Below are positions 32,575 through 61,895 of a stretch of 64,000 nucleotides of DNA, one piece after another. Location of the stretch: contig NZ_JAGSOV010000023.1 of NCBI RefSeq assembly GCF_023898865.1, positions 124,001 through 188,000 of the forward strand. The letters run 5' to 3'. A program made the position numbers and the translations under genes. A model generated the notes under the pieces. It saw nothing but the letters and a program-made list of their open reading frames with translations. It had not been told where the DNA came from and searched no databases. How positions within the stretch are numbered: the stretch's first letter is position 1; each line of letters begins with the position of its first letter. Origin of the DNA: Pseudonocardia humida (GTDB lineage: Bacteria > Actinomycetota > Actinomycetes > Mycobacteriales > Pseudonocardiaceae).

Positions 32575-32718
32575 CGACGCCTTCCTCGGCGGCGGTCGTG
32601 GCCGCTCACCGCACCGTGATACTGGCCGATCCGGGCCCCGCCCGTCGCGGGGCCGTCGGTGGTGATCGGCCACCGGCGCGCGGGCCTGCTGGTCCCGGGC
32701 CGCGCGTAGAGTTCCGCC

Positions 32719-33030
32719 GTGCTCGACGACGACCGGCGGGACGCGCTCGACGTGCTCGCCGACTCCCTGCACTGGCACCTGTCGGCGGGCCGGTGGATCG
32801 AGGTCGAGCAGCTGGTGCGGACGATGGCGCGGGCCCTCGCCGACGGCGACGAGCGGTCCTTCCGGCGCGCCACGGCCGACCTGGAGCTGCTCGGACCGGT
32901 GCGGGCGGCCAGCGCCGAGTCCCCGCCGCGGGAACCGGCGGGCGAGCGGGTCCGGGAGCGGATCAACGAGCTGATCACGTCGCTGGTCGGGCCGCGCCCG
33001 GAGCACCCACCCGCCGACGACCGCGGATGA
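32719..33030 (+). CDS. small CATRA-system-associated-like protein
   Basis: The 103-residue protein is acidic and helical (DDDRRDALDVLADSLHWHLS, EVEQLVRTMARALADGDERSF) with a conserved-looking C-terminal helix ERVRERINELITSLVG. It has no signal or membrane segment. The GTG start at 32719 is the first in frame. Its stop overlaps the start of the next gene (ATGA). Its size, helical character and position fit the small associated component of CATRA-type (caspase and TPR repeat associated) systems; this is from family memory and context rather than motif. It could be an adaptor that bridges the TPR-CHAT protease and the membrane partner. Confidence 0.7.
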   Translation: MLDDDRRDALDVLADSLHWHLSAGRWIEVEQLVRTMARALADGDERSFRRATADLELLGPVRAASAESPPREPAGERVRERINELITSLVGPRPEHPPADDRG

Positions 33031-46532: not shown

Positions 46533-47525
46533 TCAGCCGTCCAGGGCGGCGTGCAGGCGGGCCAGCCGGTCCTTCCGCTCGGCCCGCAGCCCCAGCGCCG
46601 TGTCCAGGTCGACCTCGACGAACCTCGTCCGCGTGCGCGGCGCCGACTGGGCGACGACGTCGAGGTCGCCCGACAGCACCGTCGCGACCATCATGTAGCC
46701 GCCGCCGGACACCGCGTCGCGGTGCAGCACGATCGGCTCCACCCCGCCCGGCACCTGGATCGAGCCGATCGGGTAGGGCGAGTCGACGATGTTCGACGGA
46801 TCCTGCCCGGCCCCGAACGGCGGCTCGCGGTCCACGGTCTCCAGCTGCCCACCGGTGTAGCGGAACCCGATCCGGTCGGCGACGGGGGTCAGCGTCCACT
46901 CCGTGTCGAGGAACGTCGCCCGGCCGCGGTCGGTGAGGCGGTGGTCGTAGAGCCCCATGACGACCCGGACCTCGACCTCCTTCGCCAGCACCGGCCGCAG
47001 CTCGGGCGGCACCACCAGCCCGGCCCGCGCGGAGCCGCTCCCACGGTCCGCCCCGACCGGCAGGACGTCGCCCTCGGCGAGCGGGCGGCCCTCGACCCCG
47101 CCGAGCGCGCCGAGCGCGTAGGTGGACCGGCTGCCCAGCTTGACCGGGGTGTCCAGCCCGCCGGACACCGCGAGGTAGGCCCGCGCCCCGGCCTTGAGGT
47201 AGTCGAAGGACAGCACGTCGCCCTCGGCGACGTCGAACGACTCCCACACCGGCCGCTCGTCGCCGTTCACCTTCGGGGCGATCGCCGCCCCGGCCACCGC
47301 CACCGTCGCCGGGCCGGTGAAGGCCAGCTCGGGTCCCATGTAGACGATCTCCAGCACGGCCGCGTCGGGTGGGTTCGCGACGAGCGCGTTCGCGCAGGCC
47401 AGCGAGTACTGGTCGAGCGCGCCCGACGGCGGGATCCCCAGGTGGTAGTAGCCGGAGCGGCCGCCGTCCTGCACGGTGGTGGACAGCCCGGGCTTGCGGA
47501 CCTCGATCGTGGTGGCGCCGGTCAT
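46533..47525 (-). CDS. pxpC: 5-oxoprolinase subunit C / biotin-dependent carboxyltransferase subunit (KipA-like)
   Basis: The 330-residue protein carries the allophanate-hydrolase-subunit-2 (CT_A_B) domain: EVRKPGLSTTVQDGGRSGYYHLGIPPSGALDQYSL, ANPPDAAVLEIVYMGPEL, and the conserved RIGFRYTGGQL and SPYPIGSIQVPGG segments. PxpB and PxpC form the catalytic core that with PxpA opens 5-oxoproline using ATP; the same domains form the carboxyltransferase in urea carboxylase. It is last in the operon and ATGA-coupled to pxpB. Because biotin carboxylase and carrier genes are also present, a biotin-dependent lactam carboxylase/hydrolase is a real alternative. Confidence 0.9.
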   Translation of the reverse strand: MTGATTIEVRKPGLSTTVQDGGRSGYYHLGIPPSGALDQYSLACANALVANPPDAAVLEIVYMGPELAFTGPATVAVAGAAIAPKVNGDERPVWESFDVAEGDVLSFDYLKAGARAYLAVSGGLDTPVKLGSRSTYALGALGGVEGRPLAEGDVLPVGADRGSGSARAGLVVPPELRPVLAKEVEVRVVMGLYDHRLTDRGRATFLDTEWTLTPVADRIGFRYTGGQLETVDREPPFGAGQDPSNIVDSPYPIGSIQVPGGVEPIVLHRDAVSGGGYMMVATVLSGDLDVVAQSAPRTRTRFVEVDLDTALGLRAERKDRLARLHAALDG

Positions 47526-48394
47526 GCGAGGACCTCCAGCAGGCGCTTGTTGTAGCCGTCGGGGTCGTCGAGGAAGGGCTGCAGGTCGAACCCGACCGGG
47601 CGGTTGGTGATCCGGAACTCCCCCGCTTCGGCCGCGGCCTGCAGGTCGTCGTACTCGTCGCGCTCGATCGGGCGGAAGGTGACGATGTCGCCGGGGCGCA
47701 TGAACACCATGTGCTCGGTGAAGTCCGGCTTGGTCTGGGTCGGGTCGTAGATGGGCGCCGGGGTGATCCCGAACATCTGGTAGCCGCCCGCGCCGCGGAC
47801 CGAGTAGATGCAGGAGAAGCAGCCGCCGTAGCCGACGGTCTGCTTCGGGGTGTCGGTGCGCGGGCGCAGGTACTTCGGGACGAGGATCTGCCGGTCCCGG
47901 GGCACCATCTGGTACTTGAACGGAAGCCCGGCGACGAACCCGACCATCGAGGTGAACCACGGCGAGCCGGAGTGCACGGCGATGAACTCCTCGACCGAGC
48001 CGTAGCCGTTGATCCGGGCCGCGTACTCGATGTCGGTGGCCCCGGGGTCCTGGTGGCGGTCGCGGAAGCGCATCTGGGTCTCGGTGGTCCACGGGTCGCG
48101 GTAGAGCACCGGGATCTCCACGACCCGGCAGTCCAGGGTGACGCCGAGCGCGTCGCCGACCCGCTCCTCCAGCCGCTTGAGGTGGGCCAGGAAGCCGTGC
48201 GGCTCCAGCACGTCCGGGTCGTAGCGGACCTGGTAGGACGCGTTGGCCGGGCAGATCTCCAGCACCCCGTCCGGGCGCTCGGCCTGCAGCAGCTTCGTGA
48301 TCGCCATGGCCTTGAAGTTGGCCTGCAGGCTCATCTCCTCGGCCAGCTCGACGAACACGAACTCGTCGCCGCCCCAGCTGTAGCGCGCGCTCAT
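47522..48394 (-). CDS. pxpB: 5-oxoprolinase subunit B (KipI-like), extended
   Basis: The 290-residue protein has the allophanate-hydrolase-subunit-1 (CT_C_D) domain: GDEFVFVELAEEMSLQANFKAMAI, CRVVEIPVLYRDPW, SVEEFIAVHSGSPWFTSMVGFVAGLPF and GGYQMFGITPAPIYDPTQ. It is longer than the roughly 220 residues of ordinary KipI, with an added C-terminal part (FTEHMVFMRPGDIVTFRPIERDEYDDL). The CFSCIYSV segment is unusual. It overlaps accC by 4 bp and pxpC by 4 bp, so the three subunits are made together. The length suggests a subfamily specialised for a different lactam. Confidence 0.88.
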   Translation of the reverse strand: MSARYSWGGDEFVFVELAEEMSLQANFKAMAITKLLQAERPDGVLEICPANASYQVRYDPDVLEPHGFLAHLKRLEERVGDALGVTLDCRVVEIPVLYRDPWTTETQMRFRDRHQDPGATDIEYAARINGYGSVEEFIAVHSGSPWFTSMVGFVAGLPFKYQMVPRDRQILVPKYLRPRTDTPKQTVGYGGCFSCIYSVRGAGGYQMFGITPAPIYDPTQTKPDFTEHMVFMRPGDIVTFRPIERDEYDDLQAAAEAGEFRITNRPVGFDLQPFLDDPDGYNKRLLEVLA

Positions 48395-49746
48395 GCGTTC
48401 TCCTTCCGTTCGGCCAGCCAGGATTCGAGTGTCCCGGTGTGGAAGTCGGCCGCCGCGACCCACGGCTCGTCCACCAGCTCGCGCAGCAGCCCGGCGGTGG
48501 TCGGGATGCCGTCGACGGCGAACTCGTCGAGCGCGCGGCGGGACCGGGCCAGCGCCTCGTCGCGGTCGGCGCCCCACACGACGACCTTCGCCAGCAGCGA
48601 GTCGTAGTAGGGCGGGACGGTGGCGTCCGGTTCCAGCCAGGTGTCGCAGCGGACCCACGGCCCGGACGGCAGGGTGACCCGCCCGACGCCGCCGGGCTGG
48701 GGCATGAAGTCCTGGCCCGGGTCCTCCGCGCAGACCCGGTACTCGATGGCGTGCCCGCGGCGCGCCACGTCGGGCTGGGCGAACCGCAGCGGCTCCCCCG
48801 CCGCGATCCGCAGCTGCTCGGCGACCAGGTCGATCCCGGTGATCAGCTCGGTGGTCGGGTGCTCCACCTGGATGCGGGTGTTCATCTCGATGAAGAAGAA
48901 CTCCTGGGTCTCGTCGTCGACCAGGAACTCCACGGTGCCGGCCGAGGTGTAGCCGACCTCGCGGCACAGGGCGACCGCGGCCCGCGTCATCCCCTCCCGC
49001 ACGGCCTCGGTGATCCCCGGGGAGACCGCCTCCTCCACGACCTTCTGCCTGCGGCGCTGCAGCGAGCACTCGCGCTCGAACAGGTGCACCGCGGCCGAGC
49101 CGTCGCCCAGGACCTGCACCTCGACGTGGCGGGCGCGCTCGACGAACCGCTCCAGGTACATCGTCCCGTCGCCGAACGCCTTGCGCGCCTCGGTGGAGGC
49201 CTGCCCGAACGCCCCGCGCAGCGCGTCCTCGTCGTGCACCACCCGGATGCCGCGCCCGCCGCCGCCCGCGGCGGCCTTCAGCATCACGGGGTACCCGATC
49301 GACCGGGCCGCCTCGGCCGCGGCGTCGGCGTCGGGCACCCCACCGGGCGTGCCCGGGACGGTCGGCACCCCGGCGGCGCGGGCCACCTCGCGGGCGGCGA
49401 CCTTGTCGCCCATCCGCTCGATGGTCGACGCCGTCGGCCCGACGAAGATCAGCCCGGCATCGGCGACGGCGGCGGCGAACGACGCCCGCTCGGACAGGAA
49501 CCCGTAGCCGGGGTGCACGGCGTCGGCGCCGGTCCGCTCGGCCGCGTCCAGGATCGCCTCGGCGACCAGGTAGGACTTCGACGCCGGCGACGGCCCGATC
49601 CCGACCGCCGTGTCGGCCAGCCGGGTGTGCAGCGCATCGGCGTCGGCCTGCGAGTGCACCGCGACCGTGCCGATGCCCAGGTCGCGGGCGGCCCGGATGA
49701 TCCGGACGGCGATCTCGCCGCGGTTGGCGACGAGCAGCCGTCTCAC
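48391..49746 (-). CDS. accC: biotin carboxylase (AccC-type)
   Basis: The 451-residue ATP-grasp enzyme is of normal length: the N-domain RRLLVANRGEIAVRIIRAARDLGI, the ATP-binding AAAGGGGRGIRVV, KVVEEAVSPG, EFFFIEMNTRIQVEHPTTELITGIDL with the catalytic E and N, and a C-terminal domain to ERKENA. It carboxylates biotin with ATP and bicarbonate. The GTG start (MRRLLVANRGE) is unambiguous. It lies 10 bp after a lone biotin carrier gene and overlaps pxpB. In this setting it most likely feeds carboxybiotin to PxpB/PxpC rather than to fatty acid synthesis. Confidence 0.93.
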   Translation of the reverse strand: MRRLLVANRGEIAVRIIRAARDLGIGTVAVHSQADADALHTRLADTAVGIGPSPASKSYLVAEAILDAAERTGADAVHPGYGFLSERASFAAAVADAGLIFVGPTASTIERMGDKVAAREVARAAGVPTVPGTPGGVPDADAAAEAARSIGYPVMLKAAAGGGGRGIRVVHDEDALRGAFGQASTEARKAFGDGTMYLERFVERARHVEVQVLGDGSAAVHLFERECSLQRRRQKVVEEAVSPGITEAVREGMTRAAVALCREVGYTSAGTVEFLVDDETQEFFFIEMNTRIQVEHPTTELITGIDLVAEQLRIAAGEPLRFAQPDVARRGHAIEYRVCAEDPGQDFMPQPGGVGRVTLPSGPWVRCDTWLEPDATVPPYYDSLLAKVVVWGADRDEALARSRRALDEFAVDGIPTTAGLLRELVDEPWVAAADFHTGTLESWLAERKENA

Positions 49747-49756
49747 AGCACCACGC

Positions 49757-50002
49757 TCACGGTGTCTCCACCACCGCCACCGGCTGGCCGGCGTCCACCT
49801 CGTCCTCGTTGTCCACCAGGAACTCCACGATCGTGCCGGTCGCGCCTGCGGTGATGTGGTGGAAGGACTTCATGACCTCGACCAGCCCGATCGGCGAGTC
49901 GTCCGAGACGGGGCCGCCGTCCTCGGCGAACGGCGGACTGTCGGGGTCGGGGCGGCGGTAGAACACTCCGGGGATCGGGGAGACGACCTCGTGTCGGGGC
50001 AC
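49757..50002 (-). CDS. accB: minimal biotin carboxyl carrier protein
   Basis: The 81-residue protein is essentially a biotinyl domain alone: the biotin lysine is in GLVEVMKSFHHI (EVMK instead of the classical EAMK/EAMKM), followed by GTIVEFLVDNEDEVDAGQPVAVVE. The usual N-terminal Pro/Ala-rich part of AccB is absent; instead it starts MPRHEVVSPIPGVFYRRPDPDSPPF, resembling carriers from urea-carboxylase/KipAI-type clusters. GTG start. It lies directly before the biotin carboxylase. This specialised carrier supports a dedicated carboxylase. Confidence 0.88.
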   Translation of the reverse strand: MPRHEVVSPIPGVFYRRPDPDSPPFAEDGGPVSDDSPIGLVEVMKSFHHITAGATGTIVEFLVDNEDEVDAGQPVAVVETP

Positions 50003-50059
50003 CCTCTGGCTCCTTCTCGGCTGTCGGTGCTGGCGGGGCGGTCGGTGCTGGCGGTGCGG

Positions 50060-50785
50060 TCAGGTGTCGAGGTGGGGCTTGAGCGCGTCGTGCACGGCCT
50101 TGGCCAGCTCGACGGCGTTCGGGGTGTCGGAGTGCACGCAGACCGCGTCGGCCCGCACCGGGAGGTCCTTGCCGTTCTCCGAGGTCGCGAGGCCCTCGGT
50201 GACCGCCCGCAGCGCCCGCTCAGCCGACCGCCGCGGGTCGAACGCCTGGTGCTCGCGGGTGATGATCAGCGAACCGTCGTCGCGGTAGTCGAGGTCGGCG
50301 TAGTACTCGCTGATGAAGCCCGGCCCCCGGTCGCCCCACACCTGCTCGTGCACGGTGCCGGCCATGCCCATCAGGGGCGCGCCGAACACGTCGGCGGCGT
50401 CGGAGATCGCCTCGGCGACCTCGGGATCGCGCGCGGACATGCCGTAGAGCGAGCCGTGCACCTTGACGTGGTTGAGCTCCATGCCCTCGGCCCGCAGGAA
50501 CCCGGACAGGGCGCCGATCTGGTAGACGACCGCGGCGGTCAGCTCCTCGCGGTCCAGCTTCATCTCGCGCCTGCCGAAGCCCTCCCGGTCGGGCAGCGAC
50601 GGGTGCGCCCCGACCTTCACCCCGTGCCGCTTGGCCAGCTTCACGGTCCGGGTCATCACCCGGGGGTCGGACGCGTGGAACCCGCAGGCCACGTTGGCCA
50701 CGGTCACCCAGGGCATCAGCCCCTCGTCGTCGCCGCAGTGGTAGATCGAGTACGACTCGCCCATGTCGCAGTTGATGGCCACCAT
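50060..50785 (-). CDS. pxpA: LamB/YcsF protein, 5-oxoprolinase subunit A
   Basis: The 241-residue TIM-barrel-like protein has the family signature INCDMGESYSIYHCGDDEGLMPWVTVANVACGFHASDP, VGAHPSLPDREGFGRREM, HVKVHGSLYGMS and the C-terminal VCVHSDTPNAVELAKAV. PxpA acts with PxpB/C to hydrolyse 5-oxoproline; homologues are encoded in lactam utilisation clusters (lamB). ATG 50785 is preceded by GGAAGGAGAC. It lies between the molybdenum hydroxylase gene (36 bp) and the biotin carrier gene (57 bp) on one strand. Confidence 0.93.
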   Translation of the reverse strand: MVAINCDMGESYSIYHCGDDEGLMPWVTVANVACGFHASDPRVMTRTVKLAKRHGVKVGAHPSLPDREGFGRREMKLDREELTAAVVYQIGALSGFLRAEGMELNHVKVHGSLYGMSARDPEVAEAISDAADVFGAPLMGMAGTVHEQVWGDRGPGFISEYYADLDYRDDGSLIITREHQAFDPRRSAERALRAVTEGLATSENGKDLPVRADAVCVHSDTPNAVELAKAVHDALKPHLDT

Positions 50786-50821
50786 CGGGTGTCTCCTTCC
50801 CCTGTGCTCGACTCCCGGCGA

Positions 50822-53191
50822 TCAACCAGCCTGCTCGGTCGCGGCCTTGATCGCCCGCCAGACGGCCTGCGGCGTCGCGGGCATGTCCACGTGGGTCACG
50901 CCGAGGTGGGACACCGCGTCGATGACGGCGTTCACCACGGCGGGCGAGGACCCGATCGCGCCGGACTCGCCGATGCCCTTGACCCCCATCGGGTTCGTCG
51001 GTGACGGCGTGACCTGCTGCTCCAGCTCGAAGTTCGGCAGGTCGACCGCCGTCGGGATGGTGTAGGTCGCGAGGTTCGCCGCGGTCGGCTGGCCCTCGGC
51101 GTCGAACGTGGCGTGCTCGAAGAGCGCCTGGCCGATGCCCTGCGCGATGCCGCCGTGCAGCTGGCCCTCGACGATCATCGGGTTCACCACCACCCCGCAG
51201 TCGTCGACGGCGACGTAGCGGCGGATCCGGGTGAACCCGGTCTCGACGTCGACCTCGGTCACGCAGACGTGCGTGCCGAACGGCCAGGTGAAGTTGGGCG
51301 GGTCGAACGCGGAGTCGGCGGTGAGGTTCGGCTCCATCCCTTCGGGCAGGTCCGCCGCCAGCGACGCCGCCCCGGCCACCGCCTGGATCGTCACCGTCGG
51401 CCCGGACGTGCCCGCCACCGAGAACTCGCCGCCCTCGAACCGCAGGTCCCCCCGGTCGGCCTCCAGCAGGTGCGCGGCGATCTCCGTCGCCTTGTCCAGC
51501 ACCTTCCCCGCAGCCAGGTGCACGGCGGTGCCGCCGACGGCGAGGCTGCGCGAGCCGTAGGTGTCGCGGCCGAACGGCGCGATGAGGGTGTCGCCGTGCA
51601 GGACCTCGACGTCGTCGGGGTGCACGCCGAGCTTGTCGGCGACGATCTGCGACCACGCCGTCTCGTGGCCCTGCCCGTGCGGTGAGGTGCCGGTGACGAC
51701 CTCGACCTTGCCCGAGGTCGTCATCCGCACCGTGGCCTGCTCCCAGCCGCCGGACTGCAGCCGCACGCCCGCGGCGACCTTCGACGGCGACAGCCCGCCG
51801 GACTCGGTGAAGTTGCCGATCCCGATGCCGATCTGGACCTTCTCGCCCGCCTCCCGGCGCCGCCGCTGCTCGGCGCGCAGCCCGTCGTAGTCGACGAGCT
51901 CCATGGCCCTGCGCATGCAGGTCTCGTAGTCGCCGGAGTCGTACTGCACGCCGGAGGGCACCGTGCGCGGCTCCAGGAACTTCGGGTGCAGGTTGCGCAG
52001 CCGCAGCTCGGCCGGGTCCATCCCCAGCTCGCGGGCCAGGTCGTCCATGATCCGCTCGTGGCCGTACGCCGCCTCGGACCGGCCCGCGCCGCGGTAGGCG
52101 TCGGTCGGGGTGAGGTTGGTGAACGCGCCCCGGCAGGTGAAGGAGTAGCTGCCGAAGTCGTAGAGCCCGCAGAAGGTGAACGCGCCGAACACCGCGATGC
52201 CCGGCGTGAGCAGCTGCAGGTAGGCGCCCATGTCGGCGAGCAGCTCCACCTTCATGCCGAGGATCCGGCCGTCCCTGGTGGCGGCGACGGAGATGTCCTG
52301 GACCTGGCCGCGACCGTGCGTGGTCGCCTGGTGGTGCTCCGAGCGCGTCTCGGTCCACTTGATCGGCCTACCGGTGCGCCGGGCCAGCACGAGCGCGAGG
52401 AACTCCTCGGCGTAGACGTTGAGCTTGGCGCCGAACCCGCCGCCGACGTCCGGGGCGACCACCCGGATCTTGGTGTCGGCGATGCCGGTGCAGGCGGCCA
52501 GGATGTCGCGCACGAAGTGCGGCACCTGCGTGGCGGTGTACATGGTGAACCCGCCGCCGACCGGGTCCGGCACGCAGACCACCGCGCGCGGCTCCATCGG
52601 CGAGGCGATCACCCGCTGCTGCAGGTAGGTGCCCTTCACCACCACGTCGGCCTGCGCGAACGCGGCGTCGACGTCGCCGGTGGCCAGCGGCCAGGTGTAG
52701 CAGTGGTTGGTGCCCAGCTCCTCGTGCACGAGCGGGGCGCCCTCGACGAGCGCGTCGGCGACGTCGACGACCGCGGGCAGCGCCTCGTAGTCCACCTCGA
52801 CCAGGTCGGCGGCGTCGCGGGCGGCGGCCTCGCTGGTCGCGAGCACCGCGACGACCCCGTCGCCGACGTGGTTGACCTCGGTCGTGGCCAGCGGGCGGTG
52901 GTCGGGGATCCTGATGTCCTCGGTGACCGGCCAGCCGCACGGGATGCCGGCCAGGAACTCGCCGTCGACGTCCGCGGCCGTCAGCACCGCGGTGACGCCC
53001 GGGTGCGCCTTCGCCGCGGTGGTGTCGATGCCGGTGATCCGGGCGTGCGGCAGCGGGCTGCGCACCAGCGCCAGGTGCAGCGTGCCGGCGGGGGTGATGT
53101 CCCCCGTCCACGTCCCGCGCCCGGTCAGCAGCGCGCGGTCCTCCTTGCGCGGCAGGCTGGTCCCCACGTACTTCGGCGCGGTGGTGGTCAC
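50822..53191 (-). CDS. xanthine dehydrogenase-family molybdenum hydroxylase, large subunit
   Basis: The 789-residue molybdopterin subunit has the N-terminal aldehyde-oxidase hammerhead (GRGTWTGDITPAGTLHLALVRSPLPHARI), the Mo-binding VVAPDVGGGFGAKLNVYAEE, and the active-site glutamate in GVKGIGESGAIG. The loop that is AYxCSFR in true CO dehydrogenase is AYRGAGR here, so it is a form II CoxL-like enzyme, not a CODH. It probably hydroxylates an aldehyde or N-heterocycle. No FAD or 2Fe-2S subunit gene is adjacent, unusual for this family; these must come from elsewhere. It heads the pxp/acc operon and is divergent from pucR. Confidence 0.92.
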   Translation of the reverse strand: MTTTAPKYVGTSLPRKEDRALLTGRGTWTGDITPAGTLHLALVRSPLPHARITGIDTTAAKAHPGVTAVLTAADVDGEFLAGIPCGWPVTEDIRIPDHRPLATTEVNHVGDGVVAVLATSEAAARDAADLVEVDYEALPAVVDVADALVEGAPLVHEELGTNHCYTWPLATGDVDAAFAQADVVVKGTYLQQRVIASPMEPRAVVCVPDPVGGGFTMYTATQVPHFVRDILAACTGIADTKIRVVAPDVGGGFGAKLNVYAEEFLALVLARRTGRPIKWTETRSEHHQATTHGRGQVQDISVAATRDGRILGMKVELLADMGAYLQLLTPGIAVFGAFTFCGLYDFGSYSFTCRGAFTNLTPTDAYRGAGRSEAAYGHERIMDDLARELGMDPAELRLRNLHPKFLEPRTVPSGVQYDSGDYETCMRRAMELVDYDGLRAEQRRRREAGEKVQIGIGIGNFTESGGLSPSKVAAGVRLQSGGWEQATVRMTTSGKVEVVTGTSPHGQGHETAWSQIVADKLGVHPDDVEVLHGDTLIAPFGRDTYGSRSLAVGGTAVHLAAGKVLDKATEIAAHLLEADRGDLRFEGGEFSVAGTSGPTVTIQAVAGAASLAADLPEGMEPNLTADSAFDPPNFTWPFGTHVCVTEVDVETGFTRIRRYVAVDDCGVVVNPMIVEGQLHGGIAQGIGQALFEHATFDAEGQPTAANLATYTIPTAVDLPNFELEQQVTPSPTNPMGVKGIGESGAIGSSPAVVNAVIDAVSHLGVTHVDMPATPQAVWRAIKAATEQAG

Positions 53192-53320
53192 GCCGTCTCC
53201 CCTCGGCCGCGGAACAGGTGCCCGCCAGCGTGATCCAACTCACCCGCGGGGCGCTAGTGTCCGATATGGCAGGTTGGCCGATCCGGACCCGCCACTCTGT
53301 CACTTCGCCAGGAGGTGTCC

Positions 53321-54862
53321 GTGCCGCTCACGCTCCGGGACCTGTGCGAGGACCGCGGCCTCGGACTGCGGATCGCGGGTCCGCCCGCGGACCTGGACCG
53401 CCCGATCGGGTGGGTGCACGCCAGCGAGCTCGACGACCCCACCCCGTACCTCGACGGCGGCGAGCTGCTGCTGACCGTCGGCCTCGGTCCGCACGCCGGC
53501 ACCGGCCCGCGCGACTACGTCGCCCGGCTGGCCGCGCACGGGCTCAGCGGGCTCGGGTTCGGCACCGGCCTGGGCTACGACGAGATCCCCGCCGCCGTCG
53601 TCGACGCCTGCGCGCGGGCGGGCCTGCCGCTGCTGGAGGTCCCGGAGCGGACCCCGTTCCTCGCCCTGACCAAAGCGGTGGCCGCCGCGCACGCCGCCGA
53701 CCGCTACGCCGAGGTCGTGCGCACCGACGAGGCCCGCCGCGCGCTCACCGCCGCCGCGCTCAGCACCGGGGTCTCCGCCGCCGGCCCGGCCGGCGTGACC
53801 CGGCGCGGTGCGGGCGGGACGGCGAACGTGCTGGCCGCGCTGGCCGAGCGGCTCGACGCCTGGGTCCTGGTCTGCGACGGGGACGGCCGCGTCCGGCACG
53901 CCGTGCCCCGCTCCGCGGCCCGGCGCGCGAGCGGCCTCGGCGAGGAGATCGCGAAGGTGCGCGACCACGCGGGGCGCTCCTGCGTCTCGATGTCCGACGG
54001 CGCCCGGCAGGTGGTGCTGCAGCCGGTGCGGCTGCTCGGGCCGGCGGTGCTGGTCGTCGGGCGCAACCGGCCCTTCACCCCGGTCGACCAGCGCATCGTG
54101 GAGATCGCCGTGTCGGTGCTGACCCTCTCCCACACCCGCTCCGCCGCCGTCGGCCGCGCGGAGCGCAGGCTGCGCACCGCGGTGCTGCGGGCGCTGCTCA
54201 CCCTCCCCGGCGGCGGGGCGGAGCAGGTCCTCGCCGACACCTGGGATCCCCTGCCCGAGGGCCCGGTGGTCGTGGTGGCGTTCGGCGGGCGGCTGTCCGG
54301 CCCGCTGCCCCCGGCACTGCTCGACGCGCTCGACCGCGCCGCGCCCGGCTTCCACGCCGAGCTCGACGACCGGGTCGTCGCCGTGGTGCCCGGGGAGACC
54401 GACGACGCCGTCGCCGCCGCGCTCGCCCCCGCGGCCCGCCACCCCGACGTCCGCGCCGGCGTCTCCGACCCCGCCCCGCCGGGCGAGCTGGACCGCGCGC
54501 TGCGCGAGGCGACCCGGGCGCTGGACGCCGCGGACCGCCGCGACCGCCCCGTCGTCCGGTTCGCCGACCTCGCCGCCGGCGGCCTCGCCGACCTGGTCCC
54601 CCCGGCCGACGCCGCCGCCTTCGCCGCCTCGGTGCTCGCCCCGCTGCTGCGCCACGACGCCGAGCGCCGCGGCGACCTGGTCGGCTCGCTGCGCGAGTGG
54701 CTCGCCCACCACGGCCAGTGGGACCCGGCCGCGGCCCGGCTCGGGGTGCACCGGCACACGCTGCGGGCCCGGATGGCGAAGGCCGCCGCGCTGCTGGAGC
54801 GCGACCTGGACTCCCCCGGGGTGCGCGCGGAGCTGTGGTTCGCGCTGCACCTACCCGGCTGA
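53321..54862 (+). CDS. PucR-family transcriptional regulator
   Basis: The 513-residue regulator has an N-terminal PucR ligand domain (PLTLRDLCEDRGLGLRIAG, DLDRPIGWVHASELDDPTPYLDGGELLLTVG) and a central GGDEF-like/CdaR-type region. A C-terminal PucR HTH follows (LRHDAERRGDLVGSLREWLAHHGQWDPAAARLGVHRHTLRARMAKAAALL). GTG 53321 is preferred over GTG 53315 because AGGAGG lies at 53310-53315, 5 bp before it. The family controls purine, allantoin, amino acid and lactam catabolism. Divergent position (129 bp) makes it the likely activator of the adjacent molybdenum hydroxylase-pxp-acc operon. Confidence 0.92.
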   Translation: MPLTLRDLCEDRGLGLRIAGPPADLDRPIGWVHASELDDPTPYLDGGELLLTVGLGPHAGTGPRDYVARLAAHGLSGLGFGTGLGYDEIPAAVVDACARAGLPLLEVPERTPFLALTKAVAAAHAADRYAEVVRTDEARRALTAAALSTGVSAAGPAGVTRRGAGGTANVLAALAERLDAWVLVCDGDGRVRHAVPRSAARRASGLGEEIAKVRDHAGRSCVSMSDGARQVVLQPVRLLGPAVLVVGRNRPFTPVDQRIVEIAVSVLTLSHTRSAAVGRAERRLRTAVLRALLTLPGGGAEQVLADTWDPLPEGPVVVVAFGGRLSGPLPPALLDALDRAAPGFHAELDDRVVAVVPGETDDAVAAALAPAARHPDVRAGVSDPAPPGELDRALREATRALDAADRRDRPVVRFADLAAGGLADLVPPADAAAFAASVLAPLLRHDAERRGDLVGSLREWLAHHGQWDPAAARLGVHRHTLRARMAKAAALLERDLDSPGVRAELWFALHLPG

Positions 54863-55911: not shown

Positions 55912-57300
55912 ATGAGCACCCTCGACGAGGTCCGGTCCTGGTTCGACGAGCGGCTCGGGCAGCTGCTGCGCAAGTACGACGTGCCGGGAGCGGCGTGGGC
56001 GGTGCTGTCCGGTGGTCGGGTCGTCGACGGGGCCGCCGGGCTGCTCAGCCGGGCCACCGGCGTGGAGGCGACGGCGGACTCGGTCTTCCAGATCGGGTCG
56101 GTCACCAAGCTGTGGACGGCCACGCTGGTCATGCAGCTGGTCGACGAGGGCGTCGTCGGGCTCGACGACCCGGTCCGGGCGCACCTGCCCGAGTTCCGGA
56201 TAGCCGACGAGGACGCCGCCGCCCAGATCACGGTGCGCCAGCTGCTCACCCACACCGCCGGGTTCGAGGGCGACATCTTCACCGACACCGGCACCGGTGA
56301 CGACTGCCTGGAGAAGTTCGTCGCGGTCCTGCACGGGGTGCCGCAGCTGTTCGCGCCCGGCGAGCAGTTCTCCTACAGCAACGCCGGCTACTGCGTGCTG
56401 GGCAGGCTCGTCGAGGTGCTGCGGGGCCGGCCCTACGACGCGTGCCTGCGCGAGCACGTCCTCTCCCCGCTGGGGCTGACCCACGCGGCGACCGGGGCCG
56501 CCGAGGCGATCATGTTCCGGGCCGCGGTGGGGCACGTCGAGCCGGAGCCCGGCGCCGCGGTCGTGCCGGCTCCGGTGTGGGCGATGGCGCGGTCCAACGC
56601 CCCGGCGGGCTCGATGCTCGCGATGCGCCCGCGCGACCTGGTCGCCTTCGCCCGCATGCACCTCGACGACGGCCGGGCGGCCGACGGCACCGCCGTGCTG
56701 GCGCCGGGGACGGCCGCGCGGATGCACGCCGGCGAGGTCGCCCTGCCCGACCTCGGCCTGATGGGGACGTCGTGGGGGCTGGGCTTCGAGCGGTTCGACA
56801 CCCCGACGGGCGTGCTCGTCGGCCACGACGGCAACACCATCGGCCAGGCGGCCTTCCTGCGGGTGGTGCCCGCGGCGGGGGTCGCCGTCGCGCTGCTCAC
56901 CAACGGCGGTGACGCCGTCTCGCTCTACCGGGACGCGGTCGGCCACGTCCTCGCCGCGCTCGCCGACGTCGACCTGCCCGCGCTGCCCGCGCCGCCCCGG
57001 CAGCCGCGCCGGATCGACGCCGAGCGGTTCCTCGGCACCTACTCCGCCGAGGTCTTCGACCTCACCGTCAGCCAGGACCCCGACGGGCGGATCTGGCTCG
57101 ACCAGGTGCCCAAGGGCGCCTTCGTGGAGATGGGCGGGCGCGCCGAGCGCACCGAGCTCGTCGCCTACCGAGACGACATGCTGATCCCCCTCCAGGCCGA
57201 CCGCGGCATGCACATGCCGCACGCGTTCGTCGGCGACGACGGCACCGGTCACGCGCTCTACCTGCACGTCGGCCGCGCCGTCCGCCGCGCGGGCGCCTGA
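55912..57300 (+). CDS. serine hydrolase, class C beta-lactamase/D-aminopeptidase fold
   Basis: The 462-residue protein has the penicillin-recognising fold: SxxK as SVTK (in FQIGSVTKLWTATLV), the YxN motif as YSN (QFSYSNAGYCVLG), and HDG (VGHDGNTIGQ) in place of KTG. A C-terminal domain of about 100 residues (ERFLGTYSAEVFDLTV...) resembles the extra beta domain of D-aminopeptidases and esterases of this group. No signal peptide is seen, so it is likely cytoplasmic. ATG 55912 lacks a clear ribosome site, and TCATAG upstream suggests a short leader. It leads a peptide-transport operon, arguing for a peptide or D-amino acid ester substrate. Confidence 0.87.
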   Translation: MSTLDEVRSWFDERLGQLLRKYDVPGAAWAVLSGGRVVDGAAGLLSRATGVEATADSVFQIGSVTKLWTATLVMQLVDEGVVGLDDPVRAHLPEFRIADEDAAAQITVRQLLTHTAGFEGDIFTDTGTGDDCLEKFVAVLHGVPQLFAPGEQFSYSNAGYCVLGRLVEVLRGRPYDACLREHVLSPLGLTHAATGAAEAIMFRAAVGHVEPEPGAAVVPAPVWAMARSNAPAGSMLAMRPRDLVAFARMHLDDGRAADGTAVLAPGTAARMHAGEVALPDLGLMGTSWGLGFERFDTPTGVLVGHDGNTIGQAAFLRVVPAAGVAVALLTNGGDAVSLYRDAVGHVLAALADVDLPALPAPPRQPRRIDAERFLGTYSAEVFDLTVSQDPDGRIWLDQVPKGAFVEMGGRAERTELVAYRDDMLIPLQADRGMHMPHAFVGDDGTGHALYLHVGRAVRRAGA

Positions 57301-57342: not shown

Positions 57343-58944
57343 ATGAAGCCAGTGGTCCTCGCCACCGCGGGCCGGTTCGGCCTCAGCGCCTGCCTGGTCG
57401 TCGCCCTCGCCGCGTGCGGCGGAGGGGGTTCGGCCCCGGGCGCCGCCGGGGTCGTCGAGGGCGGCACCTTCACCCTCGGGATGTCCTCGGACCCGGGCAG
57501 CCTCGACCCGCAGCTGGGCGCGGGCACCTCGCTGTTCACCGTGACCCAGTTCGCCTACGACCCGCTGGTGAGCGTGGACGGCGACACCGGGGAGATCCGC
57601 TCGGCGCTGGCGACGAGCTGGGAAGCCGACGCCACGACGGTGCGCCTCACCCTGGCCGAGGGCATCACCTGCTCCGACGGCACGCCGCTCACCGCCTCCG
57701 CCGTGGCCGACAACCTGGCCTTCGTGGGCGACCCGGCGAACCAGAGCCCGTTCCTCGGGACCTTCTACCCGGTGGGCGCCACCGCGCAGGCCGACGACGC
57801 CACGCGCACCGTGACGATCACGCTGGCCGCACCGGCGCCGTTCGTCCTCAACGGGCTGGCGAACCTGCCGATCGTCTGCCCGAGCGGCATGGCGGACCGC
57901 GCCGGCCTGCGCACGGCCACGGCGGGCACCGGGCCCTTCGCGTTGACCGAGGCGGCCCCCGGCGACCGCTACACCTACGCGAAGCGCCCCGACTACACCT
58001 GGGGGCCCGGCGGCGCGACGACCGCGACCCCGGGGCTGCCCGACACCGTCGTGGTCAAGGTGGTGGAGAACGAGACGACCGCGGCCAACCTGCTGCTCTC
58101 CGGCGGCCTGAACGCCACCCAGGTGGCCGGGCCGGACTCCGAGCGGCTGGCGGGGTCCGGGCTGTTCGTCGCCGAGACCCCGGCCATCGTCGGCGAGCAG
58201 TGGTACAACCACGCCGGCGGTCGGGTGACCGACGACCCCGCCGTCCGCATGGCGCTCACCCGCGCGCTCGACCTGGCCGAGCTGCAGAAGGTGATCACGG
58301 CCGGGCGCGGCTCCCCCGCCACCACGCTGGCCACGAACGAGCCGGTCGCCTGCCCGGGCGACTCGGTCTCCCGCGCGCTGCCCTCCACCGACCCGGCCGC
58401 CGCGGGCGCCCTGCTCGACCAGGCGGGCTGGACGGTCGGCGCCGACGGCGTGCGCAGCAAGGACGGCAGGCCGCTGGCCCTGACCTTCCTCTACCAGAAC
58501 AACCTGGGCAGCAGCGGCGACGCGGCCGCCGAGCTCGCGGTGCAGCAGTGGAAGGCGATCGGCGTCGCGGCCACCGCGCAGAGCCAGAACGAGACGACGC
58601 TGACCGGCACGATCTTCGGCGCCGGCGACTGGGACGTCGCCTGGGTCTCGCTCAACGTCAGCAGCCCCGACCAGCTGGTGCCGTTCCTGTCCGGCCCGCC
58701 CGCCCCGGACGGCACCAACTTCGCCGCGATCTCCGATCCCGAGTACGACGCGGCGGTGGCCGCGGCGTCCGCCCTGACCGGCGCGGAAGGGTGCAGCGCC
58801 TGGCTCGACGCCGAGGCCGGGCTCATCGCCGAGGCCGACATCGTGCCGTTCGCCGCGACCTCGGCGCGGACCTTCGGCAAGGGCGCGGAGTTCGCGACGC
58901 CGGGGCAGCTGGTCCCGACGAGCATCCGGATGACGGCGGAGTAG
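57343..58944 (+). CDS. ABC transporter substrate-binding lipoprotein (family 5, peptide type)
   Basis: The 533-residue lipoprotein has a signal ending LVVALAAC (lipid-modified Cys near residue 25) and the SBP_bac_5 fold: GGTFTLGMSSDPGSLDPQLG, FAYDPLVSVDGDTGEIRSALATSWE, ITCSDGTPLTASAVADNLAFV, FVLNGLANLPIVCP, DDPAVRMALTRALDLAELQKVI. It captures the ligand outside the membrane for the downstream permeases. ATG 57343 follows GGAACGGA. It is 42 bp after the serine hydrolase and 8 bp before the first permease. Confidence 0.93.
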   Translation: MKPVVLATAGRFGLSACLVVALAACGGGGSAPGAAGVVEGGTFTLGMSSDPGSLDPQLGAGTSLFTVTQFAYDPLVSVDGDTGEIRSALATSWEADATTVRLTLAEGITCSDGTPLTASAVADNLAFVGDPANQSPFLGTFYPVGATAQADDATRTVTITLAAPAPFVLNGLANLPIVCPSGMADRAGLRTATAGTGPFALTEAAPGDRYTYAKRPDYTWGPGGATTATPGLPDTVVVKVVENETTAANLLLSGGLNATQVAGPDSERLAGSGLFVAETPAIVGEQWYNHAGGRVTDDPAVRMALTRALDLAELQKVITAGRGSPATTLATNEPVACPGDSVSRALPSTDPAAAGALLDQAGWTVGADGVRSKDGRPLALTFLYQNNLGSSGDAAAELAVQQWKAIGVAATAQSQNETTLTGTIFGAGDWDVAWVSLNVSSPDQLVPFLSGPPAPDGTNFAAISDPEYDAAVAAASALTGAEGCSAWLDAEAGLIAEADIVPFAATSARTFGKGAEFATPGQLVPTSIRMTAE

Positions 58945-58952
58945 GGCCGGCC

Positions 58953-59951
58953 GTGACGGTGAGCGTGAGCGCCCCGCCTCCGCCGGAGGTCCGGCGCGGG
59001 GAGGGCAACCCCTGGCTCCGGTTCGGCGCCCGGCGCCTCGCCCGGCTGCTGGTCTCCCTGCTGGTGCTGGTGACCGCGTCCTTCGCGATGATCCACCTCA
59101 TCCCGGGCGACCCGGTGCGAGGGGCGCTGGGCCCCACCGCGCCCGCCGAGCTCGTCGCGGCCCGCCGGCAGGCCCTCGGGCTCGACGACCCCCTGCTCAC
59201 CCAGTACGCGCGGTACCTGCAGGGGCTTCTCACCGGCGACCTCGGCACCTCGCTGTCCTCGCAGCTGCCGGTCTCCGACGTCGTCGCCCAGCGGCTGCCC
59301 GCCACGCTCCAGCTGGCCGTGCTGGCGTTCCTGGCGGCCGTGCTCGTGGCGATCCCGCTGGGGGTGGCCATGGGGGTGCTGACCCGGCGCGGGCACGGGC
59401 GGCGCACCGAGCTCGCGTTCACCACCGGCAGCATCGTCGTGGCGACCGTCCCGGACTTCCTGATCGGGGTCGGGCTGGTCTCGGTGTTCGGGGTGGGCCT
59501 CGGGTGGCTCCCCGGCGCGGGCAACGACACCGCCGCGGCGTACGTGCTGCCGGTGATCGCGCTGGCGGTCGGGCCCGCGGCGATCCTGGCGCGCATCGTG
59601 CGGGTCGAGATGGTCCGCGTGCTGGAGGCCGACTTCGTGCGCACGGCGCGGGCCAAGCGCCTCCCGGCCCGCACGATCCACCTCGGCCACGCGCTGCCCA
59701 ACGCCGTCACCGCGGCGCTGACGCTGGGCGGCCTGCTGCTGGGCGCGATGGTCGCCGGCACCGTGCTGGTCGAGAACGTCTTCGCCTGGCCCGGGCTGGG
59801 CAGCACGATCGTGCAGTCCATCCTCACCAAGGACTACCCGGTGGTGCAGGCGATCGTGCTCGTCTACGGCCTGGGCGTGCTGCTGGTCAACACCGCGGTC
59901 GACATCGCGATCGCCCTGCTCGACCCGCGCTCGACGATCCGGGAGGACTGA
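58953..59951 (+). CDS. peptide ABC transporter permease, DppB/OppB type
   Basis: The 332-residue permease has six transmembrane helices. Signatures are FAMIHLIPGDPVR, ALGLDDPLLTQYARYLQGLLTGDLGTSL, and the EAA loop EADFVRTARAKRLPARTIHLGHALPNAV, then ENVFAWPGLGSTIVQSI. The GTG start 8 bp after the binding-protein stop is supported by family alignment (RLARLLVSLLVLVTAS). It pairs with the permease half of the next gene. Confidence 0.94.
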   Translation: MTVSVSAPPPPEVRRGEGNPWLRFGARRLARLLVSLLVLVTASFAMIHLIPGDPVRGALGPTAPAELVAARRQALGLDDPLLTQYARYLQGLLTGDLGTSLSSQLPVSDVVAQRLPATLQLAVLAFLAAVLVAIPLGVAMGVLTRRGHGRRTELAFTTGSIVVATVPDFLIGVGLVSVFGVGLGWLPGAGNDTAAAYVLPVIALAVGPAAILARIVRVEMVRVLEADFVRTARAKRLPARTIHLGHALPNAVTAALTLGGLLLGAMVAGTVLVENVFAWPGLGSTIVQSILTKDYPVVQAIVLVYGLGVLLVNTAVDIAIALLDPRSTIRED

Positions 59952-59954
59952 CCC

Positions 59955-61895
59955 GTGCCGCACCGCTGGTCGCGGGTCGCCCGCTCCCCGCTGGGCCTCG
60001 TCGCCACCGCCCTCCTGGTCGCCGTGGCGGCGCTGGCCGCGCTCGGACCGGTGCTCTGGGGCGATGCCGCCGAGGCCGTCGACACCGGGAACATCCTGGC
60101 CGGGCCGTCGGCCGCGCACTGGGCGGGCACCGACAACCTGGGCCGCGACATCCTCGCGCGCGTGCTCGTCGCCTCGCGGCTCTCGGTCGTGCTCGCGCTG
60201 CTGGCCGTGGCGATCGCGGTGGTCGTCGGGCTCCTGCTCGGGACCGCGCCCTTCCTGCTCGGCAGGCGCGCGGGGCGGCTGGTGTCGGCCGCGGTCAACA
60301 CCGCCGTGGCCTTCCCCGGCCTGCTGCTGGCGCTGTTCTTCGCGGTGGTGTTCGGCGTCGGGGAGACCGGCGCGGTGCTGGCCATCGGGCTGGCCGGCGC
60401 CCCGGCGTTCGCCCGCCTGGTGCACACGCTGGTCAGCGGCGTCGCCGCGCGGGACTTCGTGGCCGCCGCGCGGGTGGCCGGGGTCGGCCGCGCCCGGATC
60501 CTGGTCCGCCACGTGCTGCCGAACATCGCCGAGCCGCTGGTCGTGAACGCCACCATCGGCGCGGGCAGCGCGCTGCTGTCCTTCGCCGGCCTGTCGTTCC
60601 TGGGCCTCGGCGTCCAGTCGCCCTCCTTCGACTGGGGCAGGCTGCTCTACGACGGCGCCGCCGCCCTCTACCTGAACCCCGCCGCGGCACTCGCCCCGGG
60701 CGCGGCCGTGCTGCTCGCCGGCCTGGCGTTCAACCTGGTCGGCGAGTCGGTCGCGAAGGGGCTGGGCATCGAGGGGCTGGGCGTCGCGGCGGCCGGCCGC
60801 TGGGTGGTGCCGGGCGGCGCGGCCGCGCCGGCGACCGCGCCCGATCCCGCTCCGGCCGAGGTCGGGGAACCCGCGGACGACGTCGTGCTCGGCGTCCGCG
60901 ACCTCGCGGTGAGCTTCCCCGGGCCGTCCGGTCCGGTGCGCCCGGTGCGGGGGGTGAGCTTCGACGTCCGCCGCGGCGAGGCGGTCGGCATCGTCGGCGA
61001 GTCGGGCTGCGGCAAGTCGCTGACCGCGCTGGCCGTCACCCGCCTCGTCGACGACGACGCCCGGGTCGAGGCCACCCGGCTGCACCTGCTCGGCACCGAC
61101 CTGCGCGCGGCGCAGACCACGGCCGACCGCCGGATGCTCGGCACCGCGCTGGCCGTGGTGTTCCAGGACCCGATGACCTCGCTGAACCCGGCCCACCGGA
61201 TCGGCGCCCAGCTGGCCGAGGTCGCCACCCACCACCAGGGCATGACCCGCGGCCGGGCCGCGGCCCGCGCGGTGGACCGGCTCGACGCGGTCCGCATCCC
61301 GGACCCGGGCGAGCGCGCCCGGCAGTACCCGCACGAGTTCTCCGGCGGCATGCGCCAGCGCGCGATGATCGGCATGGGGTTGATGGGCACCCCGGCGCTG
61401 ATCGTGGCCGACGAGCCGACCACCGCGCTCGACGTCACCGTGCAGCGCCAGGTCCTCGACCTGCTCTCGGACGTGCGGGCGAGCGACGCGGTCGCGCTGC
61501 TGCTGATCAGCCACGACGTGGCGGTGGTCGGCGAGGTCTGCGACCGGGTGCTGGTGATGTACGCCGGGCGGATCGTCGAGGACCTGCCGGCCGCCGAGCT
61601 GGCCGGCGCCCGCCACCCCTACACCCGAGCGCTGGTCGATGCGGTACCCGACATGGACACCGACCTGGACGAGCCGCTCGCCACGATCCCGGGCCGCCCG
61701 GTCGACCCGGCCGACGTGCCCGCCGGCTGCGCGTACGCGGCGCGGTGCCCGCTGGCCGACGCCCGCTGCCGGGGCGAGGACCCGCCGCTGCGGGCCGACC
61801 CGCACGCCCCCGGGCGCCGGGTGGCCTGCTGGCACGCGGGCGAACCGCTCCCGCCCTCCCGGGTCGTCCGGGCCGACCTGGTGCAGTCGCCGTGA
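59955..61895 (+). CDS. fused peptide ABC permease (DppC) and ATP-binding protein (DppD)
   Basis: The 646-residue fusion has a DppC-type permease in its first half (HWAGTDNLGRDILARVLVASRLSV, EAA loop ARDFVAAARVAGVGRARILVRHVLPNIAEP, LSFLGLGVQSPSFDWG). A Pro/Ala linker at about 280-305 leads to an ATPase: Walker A GESGCGKS, Q-loop VFQDPMTSLNP, signature FSGGMRQR, Walker B LIVADEPTTALD and H-loop ISHDVAVV. The C-terminal CRYAARCP-type cysteine motif of oligopeptide ATPases appears as GCAYAARCPLADARC, a possible FeS site. The fusion is known in actinobacteria. GTG start, 3 bp after dppB. Confidence 0.93.
   Translation: MPHRWSRVARSPLGLVATALLVAVAALAALGPVLWGDAAEAVDTGNILAGPSAAHWAGTDNLGRDILARVLVASRLSVVLALLAVAIAVVVGLLLGTAPFLLGRRAGRLVSAAVNTAVAFPGLLLALFFAVVFGVGETGAVLAIGLAGAPAFARLVHTLVSGVAARDFVAAARVAGVGRARILVRHVLPNIAEPLVVNATIGAGSALLSFAGLSFLGLGVQSPSFDWGRLLYDGAAALYLNPAAALAPGAAVLLAGLAFNLVGESVAKGLGIEGLGVAAAGRWVVPGGAAAPATAPDPAPAEVGEPADDVVLGVRDLAVSFPGPSGPVRPVRGVSFDVRRGEAVGIVGESGCGKSLTALAVTRLVDDDARVEATRLHLLGTDLRAAQTTADRRMLGTALAVVFQDPMTSLNPAHRIGAQLAEVATHHQGMTRGRAAARAVDRLDAVRIPDPGERARQYPHEFSGGMRQRAMIGMGLMGTPALIVADEPTTALDVTVQRQVLDLLSDVRASDAVALLLISHDVAVVGEVCDRVLVMYAGRIVEDLPAAELAGARHPYTRALVDAVPDMDTDLDEPLATIPGRPVDPADVPAGCAYAARCPLADARCRGEDPPLRADPHAPGRRVACWHAGEPLPPSRVVRADLVQSP

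Follow-up and report, generated by a model that had tools for sequence, protein, structure and literature searches.

Parts of a six-gene operon from Pseudonocardia resemble several described systems. The operon lies in the window analyzed here, which is a stretch of 64,000 nucleotides (positions 124001 to 188000 of the 257-kb contig C107) of an 8.29-Mb genome, and it encodes a CoxL-like molybdenum hydroxylase large subunit, a biotin carboxylase (BC), a biotin carboxyl carrier protein (BCCP), and relatives of the 5-oxoprolinase subunits PxpA, PxpB, and PxpC. The 5-oxoprolinase PxpABC (LamB/YcsF, KipI, and KipA) shares with it the presence of these three homologues in one operon and the ATP-dependent lactam opening that we propose. 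In contrast to that system, the PxpB in the window is longer (290 amino acids, aa) and of the urea carboxylase type, the operon has its own BC and carrier, and an ordinary pxpABC set is present elsewhere in the genome, on contig C94. Urea carboxylase/urea amidolyase (3VA7 and 5I8I) also combines a BC, a biotin carrier, and an A-B/C-D carboxyltransferase, a likeness under which N-carboxylation would make an amide susceptible to hydrolysis. However, in the window these parts are separate chains, PxpA takes the place of allophanate hydrolase, and the substrate is probably not urea. Caprolactamase CapAB and the hydantoinases likewise open lactams at the expense of ATP, although they belong to an unrelated protein family and have no biotin carrier. 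The accessible text on CapAB reports a requirement for bicarbonate (PMC8453981), which shows that lactam opening with the help of CO2 is a reasonable idea.

Two further systems contain homologues of the carboxyltransferase genes. Going by its title, PDB entry 9YX5 shows MSMEG_0435-MSMEG_0436 bound to the long-chain acyl-CoA carboxylase complex of Mycobacterium smegmatis. PxpC matches chain V of this entry and PxpB chain W, so that homologues of both appear to be physically associated with a biotin carboxylase complex. That system differs in its short PxpB (a 210-aa chain) and, as far as the entry goes, in a partner shared in trans rather than a dedicated BC and BCCP. We take PA0493-PA0496 of Pseudomonas aeruginosa to be the same cassette as that in the window, its other two genes presumably being KipI- and KipA-like. 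The accessible text of a 2018 report describes these as one operon with an AccB-like gene, an AccC-like gene, and two more genes, calls the precise function unknown, and mentions no CoxL (PMC6249292); Pseudomonas loci L165, L171, L172, L177, and L178 belong to the extended-PxpB family described below. In addition, a 2011 evolution paper, in the part accessible, points out paired urea-carboxyltransferase-like genes but gives no functional data on them (PMC3199775). Database records label parts of the cassette “acetyl-CoA carboxylase,” “allophanate hydrolase subunit 1,” and “5-oxoprolinase.” The open-licence PMC literature, outside of which most subscription papers fall, yielded no description of this cassette’s function. 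An initial annotation, made from the sequence alone, was aware of no characterized pathway with this exact set. The function of the five-gene ring-opening cassette does not seem to be established so far.

Gene families were assigned by NCBIfam and Pfam profile matches, supplemented by the EVMK motif for the carrier and by alignment for the noncoding box:

50822-53191, minus strand: CoxL-like (form II) molybdenum hydroxylase large subunit
50060-50785, minus strand: PxpA (LamB/YcsF family), proposed lactam amidohydrolase subunit
49757-50002, minus strand: biotin carboxyl carrier protein, 81 aa, candidate biotinyl Lys45
48391-49746, minus strand: biotin carboxylase (AccC-like), 451 aa, catalytic residues intact
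47522-48394, minus strand: extended PxpB (carboxyltransferase subdomains C and D; CT_C_D), 290 aa, urea-carboxylase-like
46533-47525, minus strand: PxpC (carboxyltransferase subdomains A and B; CT_A_B), 330 aa
53315-54862, plus strand: PucR-family regulator, divergent from the operon
53230-53262, no strand: conserved box GGACACTA...GATCAC, candidate regulator site in the divergent promoter region

The operon is read in the order CoxL-like, PxpA, BCCP, BC, extended PxpB, and PxpC, with intergenic gaps of 36, 57, 10, -4, and -4 bases; because these gaps are so small, the six genes are likely cotranscribed. The PucR gene starts 123 bases from the operon in the opposite direction, and PucR is also divergent at seven other CoxL-type Pseudonocardia loci. 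The box is kept in the aligned CoxL-PucR intergenic regions of eight Pseudonocardia loci, including that of the window, and may be a site for the regulator. These coordinates and matches bear out the gene set, positions, divergent PucR, and extended PxpB of the initial annotation, as well as its minimal carrier, in which EVMK forms residues 42 to 45.

We propose that the operon allows an N-heterocycle to be catabolized in two stages, a reading that we place just on the probable side. In the first stage, the CoxL-like subunit would hydroxylate the carbon beside the ring nitrogen to give a lactam, with iron-sulfur and flavin subunits coming from elsewhere in the genome. In the second, as the makeup of the cassette suggests, the BC would load the small carrier with CO2 at the expense of ATP, and the extended PxpB and PxpC, acting as a split carboxyltransferase of the urea carboxylase type, would transfer this CO2 to the amide group of the lactam, most likely at the nitrogen. 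PxpA would then hydrolyze the activated ring amide, and the resulting carbamate would release its CO2 for another cycle, for a net conversion of lactam, ATP, and water to an omega-amino acid, ADP, and phosphate. We infer these chemical steps by analogy with urea carboxylase and allophanate hydrolase.

The proposal draws first on the conservation of the cassette. A profile built from a 17-row extended-PxpB alignment and run against one genome per species found at least 574 confirmed relatives, of which the best 80 were fetched. Bacterial hosts include Pseudonocardia, Amycolatopsis, Streptomyces, Burkholderia, Paraburkholderia, Achromobacter, Pseudomonas, Halomonas, Azospirillum, Rhizobiales, and others, along with one Chloroflexota and one deltaproteobacterial metagenome-assembled genome, and a search of plasmid records gave 89 matches, including haloarchaeal genera. 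Outside Rubrobacteraceae the usual order is PxpA-BCCP-BC-PxpB-PxpC (exceptions, L073, L074, L139, L151, and L171). This set of five genes is a cassette conserved across phyla and widespread among bacteria. Were the proposal correct, it would name the function of a cassette with this many extended-PxpB relatives, extend the acceptors of biotin-dependent carboxylases to lactams, and provide a mechanism for the cellular opening of unreactive cyclic amides. At L151 (1268-11784, Solirubrobacter), HyuA/HyuB hydantoinase genes are inserted between those for BCCP and BC.

For a quantitative comparison, 116 extended-PxpB loci were reduced to 103 nonredundant loci at 97% PxpB identity and set against 41 ordinary PxpB loci, all of which are from Actinomycetota, whereas the 103 are not. 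Markers were counted as tblastn homologues covering >40% of the query, and some rows for biotin genes (Bio), 4-aminobutyrate (GABA) transaminase, and succinate semialdehyde dehydrogenase (SSADH) are weak. BCCP was found at 94 of the 103 extended-PxpB loci and none of the 41 ordinary ones (Fisher P = 1.5e-27) and BC at 98 and 4, respectively (P = 2.2e-24), although the loci are related to one another, so that all of the Fisher P values reported here overstate. CoxL homologues were present at 28/103 versus 1/41, GABA transaminase at 12/103 versus 0/41, and SSADH at 9/103 versus 2/41. Homologues of biotin synthesis or uptake genes adjoin 23/103 versus 0/41 (some of the 23 are weak, at 29 to 40% identity); they include BioY, BioB, BioA, BioF, or BioD in several phyla, and on a Rhizobium CIAT894 plasmid, genes for SSADH, carbonic anhydrase, and bioB-F-D-A lie behind the cassette and a transporter. 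In a comparison restricted to 25 nonredundant Pseudonocardia and Rubrobacteraceae loci against the same 41, the counts were 22 for BCCP, 23 for BC, 7 for Bio, 7 for GABA transaminase, 4 for SSADH, and 16 for CoxL. Twelve extended-PxpB loci appear without BC or BCCP, and nine of these end at contig or stretch ends (L080, L081, L086, L089, L100, L121, L146, L168, and L175). L064 (7320-11412, a Pseudonocardia relative) has PucR followed by a partial BC, PxpB, and PxpC; CoxL, PxpA, and BCCP were not found there, and it looks like a deletion.

The biotin chemistry appears intact. With sequences of <85% coverage or containing stops omitted, the biotinyl lysine was invariant in 91/91 carriers and seven BC residues in 91/91 BCs, those of the window included; the roles of the seven positions are assumed from the E. 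coli enzyme. The best solved-structure match of the extended PxpB is urea carboxylase 3va7 (1.8e-23, profile positions 3 to 275), with 3va7 and 5i8i ranking ahead of KipI-type chains, and it scores 114 bits with the urea carboxylase model versus 77 with the PxpB model; the best solved match of PxpC is also urea carboxylase. A structural comparison can only be supporting, because the AlphaFold model of the extended PxpB is weak (mean predicted local distance difference test score, 65.9; much of residues 106 to 207, <50). Its matches were 2phc (Z = 13.2 over 81 residues), 5i8i (Z = 13.0, root mean square deviation of 3.8, 202 residues), and other KipI-type chains (Z = 9.7 to 11.0). Since the residues are invariant, the carboxyltransferase is urea-carboxylase-like, and Bio genes are neighbors, the cassette likely uses biotin.

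The BC and carrier match NCBIfam models named acetyl-CoA carboxylase, and they might instead serve general acyl-CoA carboxylation as spare acetyl-CoA carboxylase parts or merely regulate PxpBC. PA0493/PA0494 are read as acyl-CoA carboxylation genes in the accessible text of the P. aeruginosa paper, which calls their precise function unknown (PMC6249292). We consider this very improbable, given that no acyl-CoA carboxyltransferase is found among the operon’s proteins and that BC and BCCP accompany PxpB and PxpC at nearly all of the loci counted above.

The closeness of both carboxyltransferase halves to urea carboxylase among solved structures, together with HyuA/HyuB homologues of the hydantoinase type adjoining 7/103 loci, could also indicate a split urea carboxylase or relative that N-carboxylates a ureide (guanidine, other ureides, or hydantoin), with PxpA replacing allophanate hydrolase. 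All of the parts of urea carboxylase (A-B and C-D subdomains, BC, and BCCP) are indeed present on separate chains. However, neither NCBIfam nor Pfam revealed allophanate hydrolase, whose place PxpA occupies, among the operon proteins, likely one-chain urea carboxylases (open reading frames of >1200 aa, 28 to 32% identity) occur elsewhere in related genomes, and the GABA pathway neighbors described below suit a lactam better; a ureide substrate is therefore unlikely. As a classification, plain urea carboxylase was rejected, since the best chain, BC, reaches 537 bits against 1303.85 for the one-chain model TIGR02712 and allophanate hydrolase is missing; it was kept as a model for the mechanism. 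Hydantoinase_A/B domains of the HyuAB-CapAB kind are also absent from the operon’s proteins (Pfam).

The hydroxylase half of the proposed route depends on the CoxL-like subunit. Its relatives over nearly the whole length are the form II enzymes quinoline 2-oxidoreductase (1T3Q) and 6-hydroxypseudooxynicotine dehydrogenase (7DQX), and also CO dehydrogenase (8UEM), with which it shares Mo-binding domains, Q222, E742, and the motif AYRGAGR. Unlike these, it has no adjoining CoxS or CoxM and is linked to the lactam cassette. We take AYRGAGR to be the form II motif, and with a catalytic-type Glu in GIGESG it fits the form II assignment made originally. Form I CO dehydrogenase was rejected (TIGR02416, 694.5 versus 991.15 bits), AYRGAGR standing in place of what we take to be the form I motif. 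E742, Q222, and R367-G368-A369 of the motif are kept in 23/23 cassette-linked CoxL sequences.

Linkage to the cassette follows CoxL phylogeny. Among the matches listed, CoxL sequences of ≥65% identity had cassette genes on the same contig in 21/21 genomes besides that of the window, whereas 11/11 inspected sequences of 53 to 64% identity without a cassette adjoin CoxS; of 10 inspected at 60 to 64%, 2 had the cassette and 8 had CoxS. The midpoint-rooted tree places the 26 cassette-linked CoxL together (91/98 support), and no CoxS was found beside them in the stretches examined, some of which are short. Distant sequences (28 to 40% identity) account for at least 4 of the 28 CoxL rows counted above (L112, L113, L125, and L183), and L112 and L113 fall outside this orphan clade. 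In the CoxL tree, Pseudonocardia rows are nested within Rubrobacteraceae rows by starred branches. In the PxpB tree, by contrast, the cassettes of the two groups are kept apart by starred branches with CoxL-free lineages between them, a separation that holds despite a warning about the joining of long branches (L073/L074 and the rest), and the gene order also differs between the two groups. One CoxL clade thus sits on two separate cassette lineages, as judged from these trees, which argues for a working link between CoxL and the cassette. The window’s genome has the second Mo-binding domain at nine places and the CoxS domain Fer2_2 at seven; contigs C107 and C27 carry the former without the latter. 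A second orphan CoxL-like gene (G000:C27:11345-13588) is 48% identical to that of the window, with no CoxS within the 20 kb examined. A possible source of partner subunits in Rubrobacter indicoceani is a second, complete S/L/M hydroxylase, which is encoded about 7.5 kb away on the 52,117-base plasmid of this species. The orphan CoxL would be a clear test case for subunit sharing among molybdenum hydroxylases.

Other loci have different neighbors. A toluene-4-monooxygenase-like diiron oxygenase takes the place of CoxL at nine nonredundant loci in Amycolatopsis, Streptomyces, Saccharopolyspora, and two Pseudonocardia (families were checked at L062 only, where a tautomerase is also present). Genome G014 has both the CoxL and the diiron oxygenase cassettes, with nearly identical PxpB and 83% DNA identity over 4.2 kb, and in Diaphorobacter, the cassette is accompanied by a complete CoxM-S-L set and an ATP-binding cassette (ABC) importer. 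Such variation is consistent with a shared lactam-opening core served by interchangeable oxidizing modules or directly by importers.

The cassette could instead be a 5-oxoproline (pyroglutamate) hydrolase with its own biotin supply and CoxL an unrelated passenger. PxpA passes the subfamily model NF003814 (270.5 versus 226 bits), database records label members “5-oxoprolinase subunit PxpA,” and the accessible text of PMC13274462 reports that pxpTABC is required for growth of C. glutamicum on 5-oxoproline. However, PxpB and PxpC are far under their equivalog cutoffs (TIGR00370, 77.2 versus 145.55 bits; NF045499, 182.4 versus 500 bits). Furthermore, 13/14 Pseudonocardia genomes with a close extended PxpB, including that of the window, carry a separate ordinary PxpB match, PxpC adjoins PxpB at 41/41 ordinary loci, and two cassette lineages carry the CoxL clade. 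We therefore regard this explanation as quite unlikely.

Neighboring genes offer clues to the product of the proposed lactam-opening reaction. Transaminases at L077 and L079 (Rubrobacteraceae) and L164 (Roseibium) all pass TIGR00700 for 4-aminobutyrate (561 to 575 versus 506.65 bits), and dehydrogenases at L079 and L164 pass TIGR01780 for succinate semialdehyde (658 and 715 versus 646 bits), with that at L062 below. A homologue of the transaminase at ≥63% identity is present in 14/14 Rubrobacteraceae genomes with the cassette, and in 9 of the 14 this GABA transaminase is no more than about 10 kb from cassette genes. GABA is the opened form of 2-pyrrolidone, and with these neighbors the best guess for the Rubrobacteraceae cassettes is a gamma-lactam opened to GABA; for the Roseibium version as well as those of Rubrobacteraceae, the most likely product is GABA or a near relative. 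Treating all class III aminotransferases near the cassette as one kind was rejected because they differ (L068, L072, and L073 pass no cutoff), and the GABA argument thus applies to L077, L079, L164, and close relatives. A broader view joins a widespread class of biotin-dependent lactamases, for which CO2 would be a recycled catalyst, to an orphan-Mo-subunit route in Pseudonocardia and Rubrobacteraceae from an N-heterocycle or cyclic imine via a gamma-lactam to GABA and succinate; this we advance tentatively, as possible but rather doubtful.

Several observations weigh against the two-stage route. CoxL homologues were not found at 75/103 loci (some stretches stop at contig ends), 9 of which have the toluene-monooxygenase-like enzyme, so that the hydroxylase is an optional front end of the cassette. 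In addition, neither CoxS nor CoxM was found beside the window’s CoxL and no CoxS domain was found on its contig; with no S and M genes in its vicinity, such a CoxL may not work or may have another role, and the support for the CoxL clade falls below the tool’s mark of 95. The biotin parts raise doubts of their own: in E. coli and B. subtilis, ordinary PxpBC is not known to require dedicated biotin enzymes, so PxpB and PxpC need not be carboxyltransferases. L171 (9174-11799) and L139 (8878-11840) retain PxpA, extended PxpB, and PxpC with BC missing in place, and L171 also lacks BCCP; these are natural tests of biotin parts supplied in trans. At one of the four ordinary loci with BC (L221), the BC homologue directly adjoins PxpB. 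The title of 9YX5 suggests that biotin dependence may extend to ordinary PxpBC, in which case biotin may not separate the cassette from “ordinary” PxpABC, and the cassette bears on the question of whether ordinary PxpBC uses biotin in trans. With respect to the product, the enrichment of SSADH is not significant (P = 0.34 for the full set; P = 0.14 for the actinobacterial subset), and GABA transaminase and SSADH homologues are limited to the 12 and 9 loci counted above, some of them weak. Three Pseudonocardia aminotransferases passed no NCBIfam cutoff, and the window’s locus has no GABA transaminase or SSADH neighbor, so the GABA argument does not reach the window’s operon, whose substrate may differ. 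The scheme of hydroxylation to a lactam, carboxylation, and opening suggested in the initial annotation nevertheless appears plausible and better supported than before. Cassette conservation against the control, the Bio neighbors, the urea-carboxylase-like carboxyltransferase, the invariant residues, and the CoxL clade favor it; the optional hydroxylase, the CoxL without its usual partner genes, and 9YX5, whose title blurs the biotin distinction, count against it.

Several transport genes are found near these cassettes. A membrane protein common to 33 loci (e.g., L122:12016-13437) is a candidate lactam transporter; it is directly behind PxpC in the mapped Burkholderia and Halomonas relatives (L127 and L141) and has a below-threshold match to the cytosine/purine/allantoin permease family (22.4 versus 23.5 bits). 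In the window, a peptide/nickel-type ABC importer (binding protein, permease, and fused permease-ATPase; 57343-61895, plus strand) is encoded downstream of the PucR gene and could bring in the operon’s substrate, but no gene at the other cassette loci clusters with its binding protein or its fused permease-ATPase. A serine beta-lactamase-fold protein (55912-57300) is encoded between PucR and the importer. Elsewhere, the window encodes a 1961-aa TPR-CHAT protein (27631-33516, minus strand; CHAT, 166.5 bits), a WD40-repeat protein (1379-3535, minus strand), and a homologue of the protein adenylyltransferase SelO (9983-11440, plus strand).

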